NCBI RefSeq assembly: GCF_000264995.1
Contig: NW_006767436.1
Span: 781,414 to 845,413, forward strand
Reading direction: 5' to 3'
Length of the DNA: 64,000 nt
Source: Punctularia strigosozonata HHB-11173 SS5
Taxonomy: Eukaryota; Basidiomycota; Agaricomycetes; Corticiales; Punctulariaceae
Positions 51,011-60,232 of this stretch are shown piece by piece; position 1 is the stretch's first letter, and each line of letters opens with the position of its first letter. A program made the position numbers and the translations under genes. The notes under the pieces were generated by a model, which searched no databases, had not been told where the DNA came from, and saw nothing but the letters and a program-made list of their open reading frames with translations.

Positions 51011-51629
51011 CTATTGGTGTGCGCCGCTCTTTTCCGACGACGGTGCACGCTCCTCTAGTTGGGAATGCCCGTCTCTCCTCGACGTGAAGCGGCCGACCCC
51101 AGCCCACCACGCTATCCGCGGGATCATTAATGTGAAGCCGATGATCAAGGTCGTCCACAGCATGGGACTCCAACGTTCCGGATGCCATTTCTCATCCCCT
51201 AACGCCCATATTGTCACCACCGTATGGAAGATATCGCCCATCATCAGCGGGCCCAGAAGGGCCGCGACGATGCGCTCCTGCACGATGGGCTGCGTTGCGA
51301 GGTATTTTCGTGCCGCGGTGAGGAGGAAGTAGTTCACGGTCCCCATCAGCGCGCAAACGTGTGCGAGCTGCGCGACGGTTACGAGCGTGGCGCGAGGTAA
51401 GGGATTCGACGGTGGGGTGTTATGTGGCCATGGAGCTTGCATGTCGTGTGTCTGTCGGCACGACCGGGCAATGAGTCGCTGTGAAACTGAGACAACTGGC
51501 GACGCCGTTGCTGCTCACCTTCTTTGGATCGAGGAATGCACCGAGCATACCCATGATGCACATAGCCGGTTCGTAGAACGCGAATATAGCATAATATACG
51601 TCTGGTATCGCGGAGACGGTGGGTGTCAT
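51011..51629 (-). CDS. Four-helix membrane protein, DUF7704-like
   Basis: Small fungal membrane protein of unknown function. It starts MTPTVSAIPDVYYAIFAFYE and PAMCIMGMLGAFLDPKK. After one intron (about 51440-51520) it continues with LVTVAQLAHVCALMGTVNYF, ERIVAALLGPLMMGDIFHTV and SPMLWTTLIIGFTLMIPRIA, ending in a hydrophilic tail (EERAPSSEKSGAHQ). The pattern VYY-x-FEP near the start with a DP-K boundary and four hydrophobic spans matches a family common in basidiomycetes and ascomycetes that I recall as DUF7704; the number is from memory. Convergent with COX18. Confidence 0.75.
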
Positions 51630-52526
51630 GATTGCTGGTGAAACTCGAGGACCACTTCACGGAGTCTCTTATACCGTTGAGCACAAATGATCGGGGGAAC
51701 ACTGGGAGAAGGTGTCGGAGAGAAGTCTACAAGCCTCGTATTCTTGCAGGACCAAGAAGCCTCGAGGGAGAGTAGGCTCAGGTGATGTTGTGCCTTGTTG
51801 TACGCGTCAAGGCTCTTATAGTGCTGGGAGATATGCTGATCCGAAACTATTTACGGTGCAGAGGCCGAAGTGGAACGCTGTGTAACGCCGCGTAAAGTCG
51901 ATTTGACTAGTGCCATCAGTAGCATAGCCACTGACAGGTCGATATGAACGTGGTGTTGGGTGCTGAATCTCCCGATAGCGAGTATAGGTCCACGATGCAG
52001 CTTTATGAACGGAGACAAAGAGGGAAATCTACCGCCGGTCGACGCAGGACTCTTGCAGCGAGATCCTGGACATCTGAACCAGGATAGCCTAAGCTTATCC
52101 CCGTGAGGTGGACCAAGATTGACCGGAACTGCCGCATCACACGCGTTGTTGCCGATAACGCAGTGGCACCTGAGTGGGGCACTTCCACTGCGCTTTTTGG
52201 TAGGAGGACAAGCCGCCGAGGCCGGTATGGTGTAGATTTCTTCCCGATAGAGGAGCTGCGGACGGAAGTAAATGCAGACGCCAAGTACGGTGCATGTGGA
52301 CGAGATCCCACGCACACAGAACGTTGAGAGGGTTCTGTCTTGCAGGTGCATCTTGAACCGCATTGGGGCAGAATTGGGCCATAACACAATGCAGAGGCAT
52401 GAAGCCCGCGATTCCTGGACTTTGCCTAGGTGGGTTGGGGTTTGATTGCAGCCTGTCGGGCCGGTCCAGAGAGTCGTGGCGAGGATCATATGGCACATTC
52501 AAGGAAGTCCGCGCCGCGGTCTGTTG
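51630..52526. other. Intergenic, ~900 bp, left flank of the Ngaro element
   Basis: Several overlapping open frames on both strands, none with protein-like features or splice-linked continuation. No repeat recognised up to the start of repeat A1. Confidence 0.4.
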
Positions 52527-52693
52527 TCGTGGTTCTGAGCTGGAGTGAGGAACGAACGTAGGCGCAAGAACGTAGTCTATGCGCGCGCGGGCGTTGCGGT
52601 GGCGGTGCATTCTCTTCCTCGCCATCCGCACCGTCCGCTACCGAGTCTAGCATACGGCGAGCTCGCACAGGGCCGCCGTAACTCGTATTTTGC
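52527..52693 (+). repeat. Ngaro split direct repeat A1, 167 bp
   Basis: Left terminal repeat beginning TCGTGGTTCTGAGCTGG and ending CTCGTATTTTGC. Identical to A2 by eye. Confidence 0.92.
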
Positions 52694-52760
52694 ACAACAG
52701 AAACTAGTACCAACACTCTTTAATAATTAGTCTCAAATTGAACCCCCCGGTGAAAGCATC

Positions 52761-54372
52761 ATGCCACGTATCGACGTTAACCCACATGAACAGGTCGCTC
52801 CGAACTTTGCAGGGGCTGCCTTCGCCGCCTGCAGGCAATCCATGAGCAATCAAGATGGCTTGACGGACGAGCAAGCGGCGCAAGCCCTTCTAGACGCGTG
52901 GACCAACGACATCAATCAAGAAAAGGCCGCGTGGGACCGGCAGGTCGAAGAGGACCGGGAAGCCGCACGCCTTGCGGAGAAGGAGAGGCTCGAGCGCGAG
53001 GCAGCGGAAAAAGCCGAAGAGGAGAAGGAGGCCGCGAAGAGTCGGCCCAAGGTCCCGATACACATTAAGGACCGAATGGTCGGTCACGAGTCCGCCCCGT
53101 CAACCGACGACAAGGCCCTCAAGAAGCTCCGGGCGTATAAGTACATCGAGATGTGGTTCTTCGGAGCCGAGGGGCGGCGCAGAGCCACGGAGGACGCGCT
53201 ATCGAGCGGAGACGACGCCTTATACCTGGCCCGGGACGGCGAAGGGGTAGCGCTGCGGCAGACCGCGCCCAGCCGGATAGCGAAGTATTGCATTCCGGAC
53301 CGAGAGCTCACGTGGAGAGAGTTCTCCATCGCGAAGACCGGGCTCCTAGAGGACATGGCCAGAGTCGGATGGCCGAAGAACATCGTGCAAGACTTCGTCG
53401 ACTTCTTCTTTGCGATCGACAACCATCCGAGTCGCTTCGAGGGTCCGCACGGGGACCCATGCCTTCTCCTCTATCAGGAGGAGGTTCGGAAACTCTGGCA
53501 CCTCCAGTACGAACGCAACCCCGCAGAGATTTTCAACCCCGCGATCTTCAACAACGAGCGGCTGCAGCGTTTGACGCGGAAGTACCTGAACATACAAGCC
53601 AGCGAGGCCAACTATGCGTGCGTCCCAATCTCTCGTTTTTTCTCGCGATTACCCTCGCTGATGTTTCTTCGTTCTTCCTTTATCTGTCCGTCGACGACGT
53701 CACTACGTCTTATCGCGACTCCCATCGGGACGCGATCACTATCGCACCACGCGACCTCACGTTCCCTCAACGTGTACACGCGATCACTATCGCACCCGCA
53801 CGCGATCACTATCGCATCCGCGCGCGCCCTCCCCCGCACGCCCACCGGCCGGGGTACGCCTTCATCGCACCCGCACCCGATTGTGCACCGAAACGCCTCC
53901 CCCCCCCTGCCGCGCACACTCGGCGTCGCACAGCATGCGAAGAGCTGCACCAGCAGCCCCAGGGGGACCAGAGCGGAATGAGAGAAGGCGCTCCGCAAGG
54001 CCGACGGCCCCATACGCGCGCAGCGAGGGAGATCGCAACGGGCGCGAAAGGGATCACCACGGCAAACCGCAGTCTTTTCGCCAGGGCACCAGCGCCAGCG
54101 CCCACGCGCCGTGTGCCCTCTGCCTCGGGCGGCACCCCCACGAGGTCCGATCATGCAGGTCCCGGACTCTCTGGGACGGAAAGACGAAGGCATACGCCGC
54201 GAGGGACGCCAAAGGACAGCTGGTCGACCCGAGCGGCAGAGTCCTCTGCATCGATTTCCAGGTACGCGGATGCAAGCGCGACTCGCACGCCGACGCCTAT
54301 CGTCACTCCTGCTCGGGATGCGGCAAAAGCAGCCACGGCGCTCGCGACTGCCATCTCGCAGAGGGCCAGTAA
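52761..54372 (+). mobile_element. Ngaro gag-like region with zinc knuckle
   Basis: First coding part of the element. It starts MPRIDVNPHEQVAPNFAGAA, with a charged coiled-coil stretch (Arg/Glu/Ala-rich) and a folded block including CIPDRELTWREF. A CCHC zinc knuckle, CSGCGKSSHGARDC, lies towards its end. Nucleocapsid-like role inferred. Fossil treatment: no further detail given. Confidence 0.7.
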
Positions 54373-56341
54373 GGCACTCACGCCGCTGCGAGCCGGAGCC
54401 TGGCACCACTTGCTCGCACGTAGCAGCCTCCTGTACAAGTATCCCATTCTCTCTAGCTCCATTCAACACGGCTTCGATGCGGGCATTCGCCCGCCTACCT
54501 TTACATTCATTCCATCTAATAACATATCCATTGCCGAGCACCGCGAAGAGTTTGATGATATCATTCAGAAGGAATTCCGGAAAGGGCGCTACCTCGGCCC
54601 CTACTCGAGGAGCGAAGTCGAAGAGGCACTGGGGCCGTTCCAATCATCGCCGCTATCTATCATCCCGAAGCCGCACAACCCGGCCAGGTTTCGACTCATC
54701 CAGAACCTTTCTTACCCATACCACCCGCGAGAGCGCGTCTCCTCGATCAACTCCGCCATCGACGCCACAATGTTTCCTTGCACATGGGGAACGTTCGCCG
54801 CCGTGGCGCTGTCGCTGGCACGGCTCCCGCCCGGCTCGCAGATTGCGAGTCGCGACGTGGCTGAAGCCTATCGCACCATACCGATCACGCCCGATCAGTG
54901 GCCGGGCCTGGTGGTGCGAATCGGCGAGGGAGACGCATTCGCAGTGGATACTTGTGACTGCTTCGGCCTGCGATCAGGCTGCGGGATATTCGGCGCAGCC
55001 GCAGACGCCTTCGCAGACCTGGCAAGGGAGGGCGGCATGGGCCCGGTATCGAAATGGGTCGACGACTTCATTTTCGCGCGGGTCCGACGCAGCTGCCTGG
55101 AGGAATACAACCGCAGGCGCCAGGGCTGGAAGCGCAGCATTGCGCAGCACGGGGGCGCGCGTCAAGATCGGAGCCGCCTATGGTACGGCGGGGCAGAGCT
55201 TCCGGACGGTCGCATCGAGGAGTTCGATGATGACATGGCCTTTCCGCTGCGCGACCTCTCGCAGACATCCGAACGTTCGCAGGCGGATGCAGAATTCTGC
55301 TATGCCATGTGTGATGTCGATCGCCTTTCCGAGGAGCTTGGTTGGCCGTGGGGCGCGGACAAGGATCATCAGTTCGCGGAGGTCGCGCCGTTCACGGGTT
55401 TCGATTGGGACGTCCAGTCTCGTACGGTCGCCCTGGGCAAAGGGAAACAGGTCAAGTACATTCGCGCCATTCGGGACTGGAACGCGCAGCGAACGCACAC
55501 GCTGGACGAAGCGCAGAAGCTCTTCGGTAAGCTACTGCACGCGTCCCTGGTGGTCCCCGAGGGAAGAGCTTACCTCACCGAGCTGGAGACCATGCTCGGT
55601 GTCTTCGGTGATCGTCCTTTCCAGCCACATACCCCACCCAAGGGCACAATGGCCGCTCTCCAGTGGTGGCTGGGCACCTTACAGCGAGCCGTACTCAGGC
55701 GGCCCATCCCCGGGCCCGTCGAACTGTTCGACTCCGGAGGATATTCAGATGCGAGCTCCGGAGTGGGCATCGGAGTGGTGGTCAGGGGCCGCTGGAGGGC
55801 CTGGAGGCTCCTCCCAGGCTGGGACGAAGGCGGCAGAGAGATCGGATGGGCCGAAGCCGTCGGCTTCGAGCTACTCGTTCGGATCATCAACCTCCTCGAC
55901 GACGCAGGCGCCAGGCACATCAAAGTCTACGGAGACAACCGAGGCGTCGTCGAAGGCTGGTGGAACGGGCGAAGCCGTAATCGCCACGTCAACGGAGTGT
56001 TCAAGCGCATACACGCTGAGGCCGTCATCACAGGGCATACTTTTCATACAAGATATGTCACCAGCGCCCGCAACCCCGCCGACGCGCCCTCGCGAGGAAT
56101 CTACCCCCCACGAAGCCTGCTGCTCCCTCCCTTACCCCTACCCGAGGCTCTCACAGGACTTCTCATCGACAGCTCGGAGCCACTCACGCAACGCGAGCGC
56201 GAGGCCAGGAGCGAGGGTCGAGCGTACAAACCCCGGCCAAAGGAGCAGAACAGCGGCGAGGCCGTACGGAACTCGATTGCGCAGGCCGACCTCGAACAGC
56301 GCAACGAGCAATTCGCGCGAGCAAACTTCGGCGAATGGTGA
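54373..56341 (+). mobile_element. Ngaro reverse transcriptase and RNase H region
   Basis: Reverse-transcriptase landmarks in order: RFRLIQNLSYP, ASRDVAEAYRTIP, CFGLRSGCGIFG and the catalytic-box variant WVDDFIF. Then an RNase H-like segment with YSDASSGVGIGVVV and KVYGDNRGVVEGW. Arrangement and length fit DIRS-superfamily polymerases. Confidence 0.85.
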
Positions 56342-56379
56342 CCGCGAAGCAGGGGCGGCGCGCCCGCAAGTCAGCCTTC

Positions 56380-57479
56380 GTCCCGCGTGCCCAGCCAGCC
56401 AGCGTTTGTTACTATGGACACCCGCAGGAGGCCGCACGACTTTCGGAGCCGACGGGCAGCCCTCCGGATTGGACCAGCGCGACCTCGATCGGGTGCGCGA
56501 AGTGATGGCCCAGGCGCTAGCCCCGTCAACCGCAGAGACCTACGGCGCGGGGCTAGTCGCATTTCATGCGTTCTGCGACGAGCGCCGAATAGCAGAGGAG
56601 CAGCGGACGCCCGCATCGGCGACACTAATGCTCGCTTTTAGCGCCGCGCTGGCCGGCCTGTACGCGGGGTCGACGGTTGCGAACTACTTCTACGGCGTCC
56701 GAGCATGGCATCTCATCCACGGCGTCGTCTGGGACATGGACGACGCAGCCATGCAGTCCATGCTGAAGGCGACAGTCAAGCTAACTCCCGCGGCCTCGAA
56801 GCGCAAGAAGCGAGAGCCGTACACCGAGGATCTTATTCGCGCAATAAGGCAGCAGCTTGCCGTGGACCAGGGCCTCGACGCCGCAGTATACGCCTGCCTA
56901 ACAATGGCGTTCTACGCCTGCGCGCGTGTAGGCGAGCTCACCGTGCGTAACCGCAGCAGCTTCGAACCCGGCACACATGCCAAGCGCGCTGACCTCGGGC
57001 TCGCCGAGGATCGGAATGGACTGCAGCAACAGACCCTACAGCTGCCGCGGACCAAGTGCGCCGTCGGCGGGGAGCAAATCCATTGGGGACAGCAGGACGG
57101 GATCACAGACCCCGTCGCCGCCCTCGCAAATCACCTCCGCGTCAACAGCCTGGGCGACAACGAGCACATCTTCGCATACAGGGCGCGGAACGGGCAAGTA
57201 TGGCCGCTCACGCGCAAGGCCTTTCTGGACCGCATCCGGGCCGCCACCAGAGCAGCCGGCAGAGCTCCGCTCCAGGGGCACGGCATCCGAATCGGTGGGA
57301 CTCTCGAATACCTGTTGAGAGGCGTCCCATTCGAGGTCGTCAAGACCAAGGGGCGCTGGGGAAGCGAAGCCTTCCTAGGGTATCTCAGGAAGCACGCGGA
57401 GATCCTCGCCCCCTACATGCAGGCACGGCCGCAGCTGCAAGCTGAGTTTATCCGATACGCCATGCCTCCGGTTCGTTGA
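56380..57479 (+). mobile_element. Ngaro tyrosine recombinase region
   Basis: Phage-integrase-type recombinase following the polymerase. The N-terminal core-binding part contains APSTAETYGAGLVAFHAFC and the catalytic part contains AFYACARVGELTVRNR (first Arg box), HGIRIGGTLEYLLRG (His-x-x-Arg box) and KTKGRWGSEAFLGYLRKH (Trp/Tyr box). Ends shortly before repeat B1. Confidence 0.88.
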
Positions 57480-57549
57480 CGGTAAGCACCGCTCCTATCC
57501 GGCGGGGTTCGCCTGCGCGACGCGTCGCAGTGCTCCTACCACTGTGGGT

Positions 57550-57738
57550 ATCGCGGCTCACACACCCCGCACAGATCCCCGGACCGGAACGCCCCCTTCG
57601 GGGGCATTCGCCCGTTTCTCACCAACTTACAAGTAGTCTAATCAGTTTAGTACCACGCGGCTCAGACTTAATTGTATATACCAATTTAAGTGCTCCGTTC
57701 TCTGACCCTGGGAACACGCAACAAAGAGACGGCATAGA
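57550..57738 (+). repeat. Ngaro split direct repeat B1, 189 bp
   Basis: Begins ATCGCGGCTCACACACC, ends AGACGGCATAGA, and abuts A2 directly. Identical to B2 by eye. It contains a small perfect hairpin, GCCCCC-TTC-GGGGGC, at 57591-57605. Confidence 0.92.
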
Positions 57739-57905
57739 TCGTGGTTCTGAGCTGGAGTGAGGAACGAACGTAGGCGCAAGAACGTAGTCTATGCGCGCGC
57801 GGGCGTTGCGGTGGCGGTGCATTCTCTTCCTCGCCATCCGCACCGTCCGCTACCGAGTCTAGCATACGGCGAGCTCGCACAGGGCCGCCGTAACTCGTAT
57901 TTTGC
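57739..57905 (+). repeat. Ngaro split direct repeat A2, 167 bp
   Basis: Second copy of the left terminal repeat, fused to B1. The B1-A2 junction equals the joint expected in a circular intermediate. Confidence 0.92.
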
Positions 57906-58796
57906 CACCCGCCCACCCAGCTCCGACGCGATGCACTGGGGACAACAGCTCAGCCAGCGCAGGCGCCATTCGCAAAAGCAACTCACAAGGTCACGTGTGA
58001 CGATAGCACGGACATGCGTGGCAGAACAAGGAGCAGCTGGAACAGGAAACCGGAAGCCGCAGGTAGCGGCATATCAGGCGCCAATAGTAGGTGAGCCCGG
58101 GGAGGTCCGAGCACGTGCAGATGGCCCCAGCCAGCTTCGAGCCGGGAGAGGGGTACACGGCAGAGGAGGGCGCCGCTGACGGAGCAGCTTCAGGCAAGGC
58201 CGGAAGGGGATAAAGAGCCCGCAGGGGGCGCAGCCCAGTGTAAGGCCGGTCCCTCCCCAGGACGTCGGCAGGCCCTAGGACTAATGGGTCTCAGCCTGGG
58301 TGAGTCGCCTGAACAACGGAAACTCACACTCGTAATGCATAACACGGCAGCGCGGATTATCCAGGTGAACATAATGAGGAACCACACGAGCGCAAAGATG
58401 TTCAGCGTAGAACGCTTCACCAGGAGGGATGATGAGGCCCCCAGGAGGGAGGGGCCAGTTCACCGGAGAGGAACGAGCGACTTGGGAGTGGGAAGACATA
58501 GAAAAAGAGAGTGAAGGGGAAGGAGCGGAAACGTCACCCTCGAGAAACTTATAGGATTGTGAACCGCGGCGAACACACCGCCGCGGATCAGAGTTCCAGT
58601 GTCACATCGGGGAGAAAGAGCGCTCTCGAGCAAGAAGAGGATAGCACCGGAGGAATATGTATGTAAAAGGTGCCATAACATGACAGACCGTCAGCCATTT
58701 GTAGCCCCTGCATTTCTGGGGTCCGGGAATTAAGCGAGGTTCACTTTCAGGGTTGCATCCCACCCTCCACGCCTCATGTGTTGACCCTGCCCGCCC
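57906..58796. other. Ngaro A2-B2 spacer, 891 bp
   Basis: Non-repeated interval inside the element between A2 and B2. Short frames on both strands, none recognisable. It contains a perfect 8-bp hairpin (CCGCGGCG and CGCCGCGG around AACACAC) at 58564-58586. May be a non-coding 3' region of the element. Confidence 0.55.
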
Positions 58797-58985
58797 ATCG
58801 CGGCTCACACACCCCGCACAGATCCCCGGACCGGAACGCCCCCTTCGGGGGCATTCGCCCGTTTCTCACCAACTTACAAGTAGTCTAATCAGTTTAGTAC
58901 CACGCGGCTCAGACTTAATTGTATATACCAATTTAAGTGCTCCGTTCTCTGACCCTGGGAACACGCAACAAAGAGACGGCATAGA
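58797..58985 (+). repeat. Ngaro split direct repeat B2, 189 bp
   Basis: Right terminal repeat of the element; same sequence as B1 by eye, including the small hairpin. Confidence 0.92.
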
Positions 58986-60232
58986 GATGTATCGATGAGT
59001 TGCAAGGCACGCAATCGCGGCCGCGGACTGCAGCCCAATGCCGACAGCGAACTCCGCAGCGGAAGAACAGACACACTCCCACAAATTGAGCGGCAAGCCT
59101 GTATCCGAGTTCGATTGTCCTTGGCCAAGCGAGCAACATCCATGCTCATCCACCGTCTTGTACGTTGTTGAGCTCGCCTTGGAACGTACTAGCGATATGG
59201 CGTGCGGTGATCGCGACGGTCGGGGCGCAAACGAACAGTCACATCGTGCGAACTGGCTTATGCTTCCACGACACTCTTCATAGAGGAAGAAAGTCCGGTG
59301 TGCGTAAAGGAACCGCTCGGAACGGAAGCAATCTCAAGTGCAAGTAAGCAGTCGTCCTTCCAAGCTCACGCCTGCGAGACGTGCCTCCGTACGCAATCAG
59401 CATCCGGTCAAGGGTATTCTATACAACGCTCGTTCTCATTCATGCTTTCATTACACACAAGGATGTAGCCTAGATACCTGAACCCTGAACCCGCCCGACC
59501 GACTCATCGACTCGCGTGCACTGAGTTCTATAAATATCCCGGTACCGCAACCCGTCGATGTTGTGGTACGCAGCGCGCTGTACGACACATGTACATATGG
59601 AACGAACAAAGAGCGGCTAGGTCGGAGCCATTAACTAACGGTACGTGTGCGTGACGCGCGTTAAACATGAGGGGATGAGCTTCGTAGGTGGCCGCGCCAG
59701 GACGCCCGGACAATCCCAAGGGGAGGGGCGCGGGAGGAGGTGGCGCCGAAGGCTGAGCGGGATGGAGGAAGCTGGAAACGGATCCGCACAGCGCCTAAGC
59801 GCGGGGGGCGAACGATGCGAGGCGAGAATGCTGGACGCGGGCTGTCGCCGGAGGTGTATGCGGTACCTTCCTCCAGGCCTTGTCAGCCCCCGCAGCGCAG
59901 TCGATGAGCCGGAACGACGTCATCGAGAAGGCGCATGCGAATGGCGCCACGTCCAGAACGCCGAGAGCGTGTACATTGCCCGAAGTATCGCGCCGGGTTG
60001 TCGCGAATTATGGCACGAGGAAGAGGAGGAGGACGAAACCGTATCGGTCATGAGCACGAATAAATAATGCAATATTGGAATGATGTGTTGCCGCGTGCGA
60101 ATATCGAGGATGAGTGGATGGGTCGTGTCGGATGCGCGTGGATGTGTAAGAAAAGTGTAGGTGTAGGTGGCCATGGTGGAGTGATCGTGATGACGTCTAG
60201 CATGTCTTGTCTAGACCTGCGGGAGGGTGGGA
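58986..60232. other. Gene-free interval, ~1.25 kb, right flank of the Ngaro element
   Basis: From the right end of the Ngaro element to the stop of the TVP38-like gene. Several short frames and one 140-codon plus-strand frame (59645-60067) with biased composition, none protein-like. Nothing else recognised. Confidence 0.4.

Follow-up and report, generated by a model that had tools for sequence, protein, structure and literature searches.

The locus at positions 52527 to 58985 of the window, by which we mean the whole 64,000-nucleotide (nt) stretch of Punctularia strigosozonata contig NW_006767436.1 analysed here, raises the question of whether it holds a complete, recently inserted Ngaro retrotransposon and how such an element could express its proteins. 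Tyrosine-recombinase retrotransposons are little studied, and we know of no Ngaro element that has been worked with experimentally. We hold with high confidence that the locus is a structurally complete, unbroken and probably young Ngaro-group element. Its kind is already known; a probable intron in gag and a recombinase frame that seems to be kept open across the whole of pol deserve follow-up.

A search of positions 51500-60000 for repeat pairs of at least 40 nt returned two families of direct repeats, A and B, and no inverted pair. The repeats and the interval between A2 and B2 are placed as follows:
52527..52693, + strand: A1, left terminal repeat, 167 nt (repeat search; junctions compared in five copies)
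57550..57738, + strand: B1, internal copy of the right terminal repeat, 189 nt (repeat search)
57739..57905, + strand: A2, internal copy of the left repeat, adjoining B1 (repeat search)
57906..58796, + strand: A2-B2 interval, 891 nt, in which no gene was recognised (short open reading frames, ORFs, were not scanned against families)
58797..58985, + strand: B2, right terminal repeat, 189 nt (repeat search)
The element runs A1-ORFs-B1A2-891 nt-B2 over a total of 6,459 nt. Both repeat pairs are 100% identical (A1 = A2 and B1 = B2), and for exact repeats of this length chance is excluded. An earlier sequence-only reading of this DNA had described A (167) and B (189) repeats, identical and in the order A1...B1-A2...B2, and this proved correct to the base. 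B1 and B2 do not behave as the flanking repeats of a long terminal repeat retrotransposon, whose two ends each carry one direct repeat and whose insertion duplicates a short target; the layout is split and no consistent duplication was found.

Between the repeats lie three coding regions, the first of them apparently interrupted:
52761..53617, + strand: gag exon 1, 285 codons plus 2 nt, ending GC^GTGCGT, with the same break in five of five copies
53618..53933, + strand: proposed gag intron, 316 nt, GTGCGT...CACAG (five-copy comparison)
53934..54372, + strand: gag exon 2, with a CX2CX4HX4C zinc knuckle and its stop at 54370-54372 (five-copy comparison)
54374..56341, + strand: pol, reverse transcriptase (RT)-RNase H, 655 codons from ALTPL plus stop, +1 to gag
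53982..57479, + strand: tyrosine recombinase (YR) frame, open for 1165 codons, +1 to pol and overlapping all of it
56340..57479, + strand: tyrosine recombinase domain, the non-overlapped 3' part of the YR frame (alignment and profile searches)
In pol we observed RDVAEAYR, KWVDDF and a D, E, D, D set, all conserved in relatives; we take RDVAEAYR/WVDDF and D-E-D-D to be RT and RNase H motifs. The YR protein carries R196, K239, H314, R317, W340 and Y348, presumably the catalytic residues, and in 15 aligned sequences all but R196 are invariant (C in locus L045). The RT, RNase H and tyrosine recombinase signatures claimed earlier are therefore represented by residues present between the repeats, together with a Gag that has a CCHC knuckle. 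The Pfam recombinase model PF00589 matches 8 of the 15 aligned YR members (best E 1e-5), the window copy not among them, and a YR profile compared with solved structures retrieved only Cre/Tre recombinases (E 0.001-0.015), with no single stretch passing alone. Within pol (54374-56338), a stretch of ~60 residues after the RT WVDDF is absent from two second-group sequences that were aligned.

We searched the 33.57-Mb genome (32 contigs) for further copies, all match counts being lower bounds. A nucleotide search with the repeats, as had been proposed, found A at no fewer than 9 places and B at no fewer than 9, all of them within five related elements, the window copy and four others; A and B are thus not unrelated host sequence. 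The four relatives are:
L023, on C2: full layout, both repeat pairs 100% identical; long pieces ~87-92% identical to the window
L024, on C15: full layout, with 99% identity in each repeat pair and part of the A2-B2 interval masked; long pieces ~87-92% identical
L026, on C13, minus strand: full layout, repeats of 167 and 205 nt, pairs 100%; long pieces ~76-78% identical
L025, on C11: one A and one B, without the A2-B2 part; long pieces 95-97% identical to the window
The A1...B1A2...B2 layout is thus shared by three relatives, and the A2-B2 interval is 88% identical to that of the C2 copy and 68% identical, over most of its length, to that of the C13 copy. L025 runs A1...B and then into other DNA. 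This reduced form would arise by recombination of B1 with B2 after insertion or by resolution of a circle at two B/A junctions before it; both fit. At protein level, the recombinase search gave at least 34 matches and the pol search at least 62. YR identity reaches 54% or more at eight loci (the five elements, C21, C14 and C2:787 kb) and is mostly 25-35% at the others.

The left flank of the window copy ends GTTG and its right flank starts GATG. B terminates in CATAGA and A opens with TCG in the four close copies, the corresponding sequences in L026 being CATAGAT and AGAT. No target duplication recurs consistently across the 7 insertions read, which agrees with the sequence-only reading. In L023, L026 and C1, one to four bases can be assigned to either flank or element. 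The 120-nt flanks of the window copy have no match elsewhere in the genome, and those of L025 are likewise single-copy.

The earlier assignment had been to Ngaro/PAT. Its Ngaro part is supported by the split direct repeats with their internal block downstream of YR and by a tyrosine recombinase with R...HxxR...Y, whereas its PAT part is unlikely: PAT elements combine split direct repeats with a methyltransferase, and pol here ends ~85 aa past the last RNase H residue, so that there is no room for one. Neither methyltransferase, DDE integrase nor protease was matched by Pfam, which misses the RT as well. DIRS1-like elements, as described in excerpts of PMC3266345, resemble the window element in that their YR ORF overlaps pol at length and keeps its catalytic domain in the non-overlapping 3' end. 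They differ in having inverted terminal repeats, internal complementary regions and a methyltransferase; in the window the repeats are direct and split, and neither the inverted repeats nor the enzyme was found. We consider it very improbable that the element is PAT- or DIRS1-like. Several results nevertheless weigh against the Ngaro assignment. The window RT and YR proteins have no Pfam match below E 0.01, although some relatives do; RVT_3 (RNase H) is matched in 2 of 7 aligned members, at best with E 4.1e-4, below the curated cut-off; and the pol profile compared with solved structures retrieved only ubiquitin-type proteins (E down to 2.4e-8) and isatin hydrolase. Two of the 7 insertions have a 3-bp flank match, GGT in L024 and ATT in C1 (the latter if one shared G counts in both A and B). 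In addition, the joined 120 + 120 nt flanks of the window copy and of L025, the two copies covered by this search (L023, L024 and L026 were left out), matched only their own flanks in the genome; with no empty site to compare, the absence of a duplication is not final. An NCBIfam scan of the window pol, the window YR and one relative gave nothing relevant. The weak model matches of the window copy, which are better in the relatives, limit the domain calls. The ubiquitin-type and isatin hydrolase matches were taken as spurious.

The identity of the repeats also bears on the age of the insertion. None of the 356 paired repeat sites differs, placing divergence below about 0.84% (rule of three). 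L025 differs from the window copy at 135 of 4704 sites. L023 and L024 served as outgroups to polarise these differences, of which 101 fell on L025 and 14 on the window copy, with 20 unassigned. C>T and G>A account for 87 of the changes on L025, and 79 of the 87 lie in CpG. The compared stretches hold 521 CpG, meaning that L025 has lost 79 of 1042 CpG cytosines (7.6%). At this rate ~11 changes would be expected among the 148 CpG cytosines of A1, A2, B1 and B2, and none was seen (P about 1e-5, assuming equal methylation). The window copy is therefore either much younger than L025 or was spared its decay. The recent insertion proposed earlier is thus supported as an upper bound on divergence and by the contrast with a decayed relative. 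The family may be active in this genome, as that reading also suggested. Gene conversion inside each copy could also keep the repeats identical, and the window copy and its three full-layout relatives, which are ~8-25% diverged from the window, all have pairs that are 99-100% identical. However, both pairs should be made anew by replication with every insertion, which requires no conversion, and the pair identities vary (both 99% in L024, and 92.7-100% for the B pairs of other Ngaro loci), as differing ages would predict. We therefore regard recent insertion as the better account and conversion as unlikely.

We next consider gag. In all five copies, the conservation of exon 1 ends at GC^GTGCGT (in L026 at GTATGT) and CAG directly precedes exon 2. 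Once joined, the two exons of each copy form one unbroken Gag with a constant layout and CX2CX4HX4C close to its C-terminal end. The lengths of the intervening stretch are 316, 326, 326, 373 and 372 nt (mod 3 = 1, 2, 2, 1 and 0). Since these fall in all three phases, only splicing would unite both halves of Gag every time, and 53618..53933 is a probable gag intron; no branch point was identified in it. A comparable break, placed only approximately, separates two gag frames in the C21 element. Because all five genomic copies retain the stretch, the RNA that is reverse-transcribed is presumably unspliced.

Exon 2 opens with an ATG in all five copies and might instead encode a separate small protein, the 316-nt stretch being a spacer. 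This does not account for conservation that stops exactly at GTGCGT/GTATGT and resumes after CAG in five of five copies, nor for an unspliced frame whose end varies among the copies between 291 and 425 aa from its start, and we find a separate protein doubtful. For the recombinase, the competing explanation is that it starts on its own after pol, the absence of stops in the overlap simply following from base composition or codon bias. G+C here is 61-64%, which makes stops scarcer, and among YR-frame ATGs the first that all five copies share is at about codon 710, beyond the stop codon of pol. Against a start there, a conserved YR block precedes that ATG. In five of five copies (window, L023, L024, L026 and C21; L025, whose pol is split by an insert, was left out) the YR frame has no stop over the 655 pol codons, whereas synonymous shuffles that retain codon use gave means of 12.5, 9.3, 11.0, 12.6 and 8.4 stops, respectively, with 0 of 2000 shuffles at zero in each case. 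The decayed C14 copy has 2 stops against 10.5 expected. In 26 control frames (gag and YR, and second-group pol, gag and YR, with C14 pol left out), the +1 stop counts track the shuffles with a lowest P of 0.045, four of these controls (gag exon 2) having no power as they expect about one stop or fewer. Depletion is confined to the codon boundaries at which a stop would be completed: a stop-completing base follows NT[AG] codons in 0/50, 0/46, 0/46, 0/43 and 0/37 cases, compared with 33-35% after other codons (Fisher P 1.3e-8, 2.9e-8, 2e-8, 1.7e-7 and 6.1e-7; P >= 0.053 in seven of seven control sequences). The five copies are related and not independent events, but their fourfold sites are 0.22-0.62 different from the window copy. 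On this evidence an independent start behind an accidentally open frame is quite improbable.

The stops are depleted while the overprinted peptide is not conserved, and so it is the openness itself that seems to be selected, the peptide being apparently unconstrained. Some observations count against this interpretation. Nine of the 26 controls have mildly reduced +2 counts (P < 0.05, lowest 0.002), and the +2 frame of L026 pol has 10 stops against 19.6 expected (P 0.0015); pol-length frames with low +2 counts still contain at least 10 stops. The identity of the overprinted peptide in the +1 and +2 frames, respectively, is 0.734/0.731, 0.705/0.699, 0.471/0.465 and 0.369/0.346, indicating no conservation beyond that of the other silent frame. 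No YR-frame ATG inside the overlap is common to all five copies. Upstream of pol, however, each copy contains one or more, in positions that vary between copies, making internal starts possible.

From these results we suggest an expression scheme. Splicing of the gag intron would yield a full Gag with its zinc knuckle. Pol continues +1 directly after the gag stop in six of six copies (TAA in four, TAG in one and TGA in one), and pol-frame ATGs before nt 400 are few, at differing places and never common to the copies; because of this placement and the lack of a shared start codon near the beginning, expression of pol probably relies on either a +1 shift or an alternative join. For the recombinase we lean towards a long fusion, made by ribosomes that enter the YR frame in or before late gag. 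We likewise somewhat favour the view that, starting at the end of gag, a single RNA is translated in all three frames, the third being a sequence-free "runway" that carries ribosomes to the recombinase. If so, a polymerase gene that also acts as a runway to a second gene would represent overlapping coding of an unusual kind. The scheme of spliced Gag, +1 pol and third-frame recombinase yields specific predictions that can be tested directly. For replication, we adapted the circle model for DIRS1-like elements as outlined in passages of PMC3266345. Unspliced genomic RNA would be copied by the element's own RT-RNase H, the internal B1A2 block would supply the sequence that completes the ends to give a circle with a B/A junction, and the recombinase would open this circle at the junction and insert it without a target duplication.

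Ngaro elements have been described from Agaricomycotina, with A-pol-B-A-B repeats, Gag, RT-RNase H, a YR in the pol frame or shifted from it, and no methyltransferase (PMC3783388, in part); compared by description, layout and domains match those of the window element, its RT-RNase H by motif. The main text of that paper contains neither 'intron' nor 'splic', and no selection test on the overlap was seen there. Passages of PMC9210276 describe the Xenopus Ngaro-like DIRS-53_XT, whose split direct repeats are 100% identical (236 and 152 bp) and whose ORF frames all overlap; it carries an extra SGNH hydrolase ORF, and none was recognised in the window element. The Cafeteria Ngaro, according to parts of PMC8547959, has an A1-[ORFs]-B1A2B2 layout with Gag, RT-RNase H and YR. 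Solo AB repeats are reported there, while the reduced L025 keeps A1-ORFs-B without A2-B2. No title, abstract opening or passage covered dealt with an intron in Ngaro gag or with selection that keeps the YR frame open, subscription papers being mostly outside this coverage. What this genome offers is a set of relatives of graded divergence, from which the arguments for the intron (phase), the overlap (stop depletion) and the relative ages (CpG decay) were drawn.

In addition to the close relatives, other and more numerous Ngaro-like loci (L036-L056) have a YR identity of 27-35%. Of these 21 loci, 16 carry two direct repeats immediately after YR and 5 have no such pair; the pairs are 92.7-100% identical, and the 10 at 100% suggest several young insertions. 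The two fully extended members of a more distant group, C1 and C19, both have the A1...B1A2...B2 layout, and unlike in the window element their YR lies outside the frame +1 to pol. At C21:229800-237900 (L057, L032 and L058), the gag, pol and YR frames are open and no A or B direct repeat pair was found. An RNA fold of B gave no signal (z -0.34). The first 65 nt of B (57550-57615 of the window), 92% conserved in the C13 copy, contain the hairpin CCCCCTTCGGGGG, and after YR the C21 element has AGCCCTTCGGGGCT at the matching place, the stem seemingly kept through change. The 1.8-kb insert that splits the pol of L025 (L025:3929-5705) has ends, CTGTCCCGC...GCGCGACAG, that resemble short terminal inverted repeats, and it is perhaps a DNA transposon. 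The L023 copy lies ~40 bp upstream of a reading frame (L023:7482-8480) that by eye resembles a tetratricopeptide-repeat protein.

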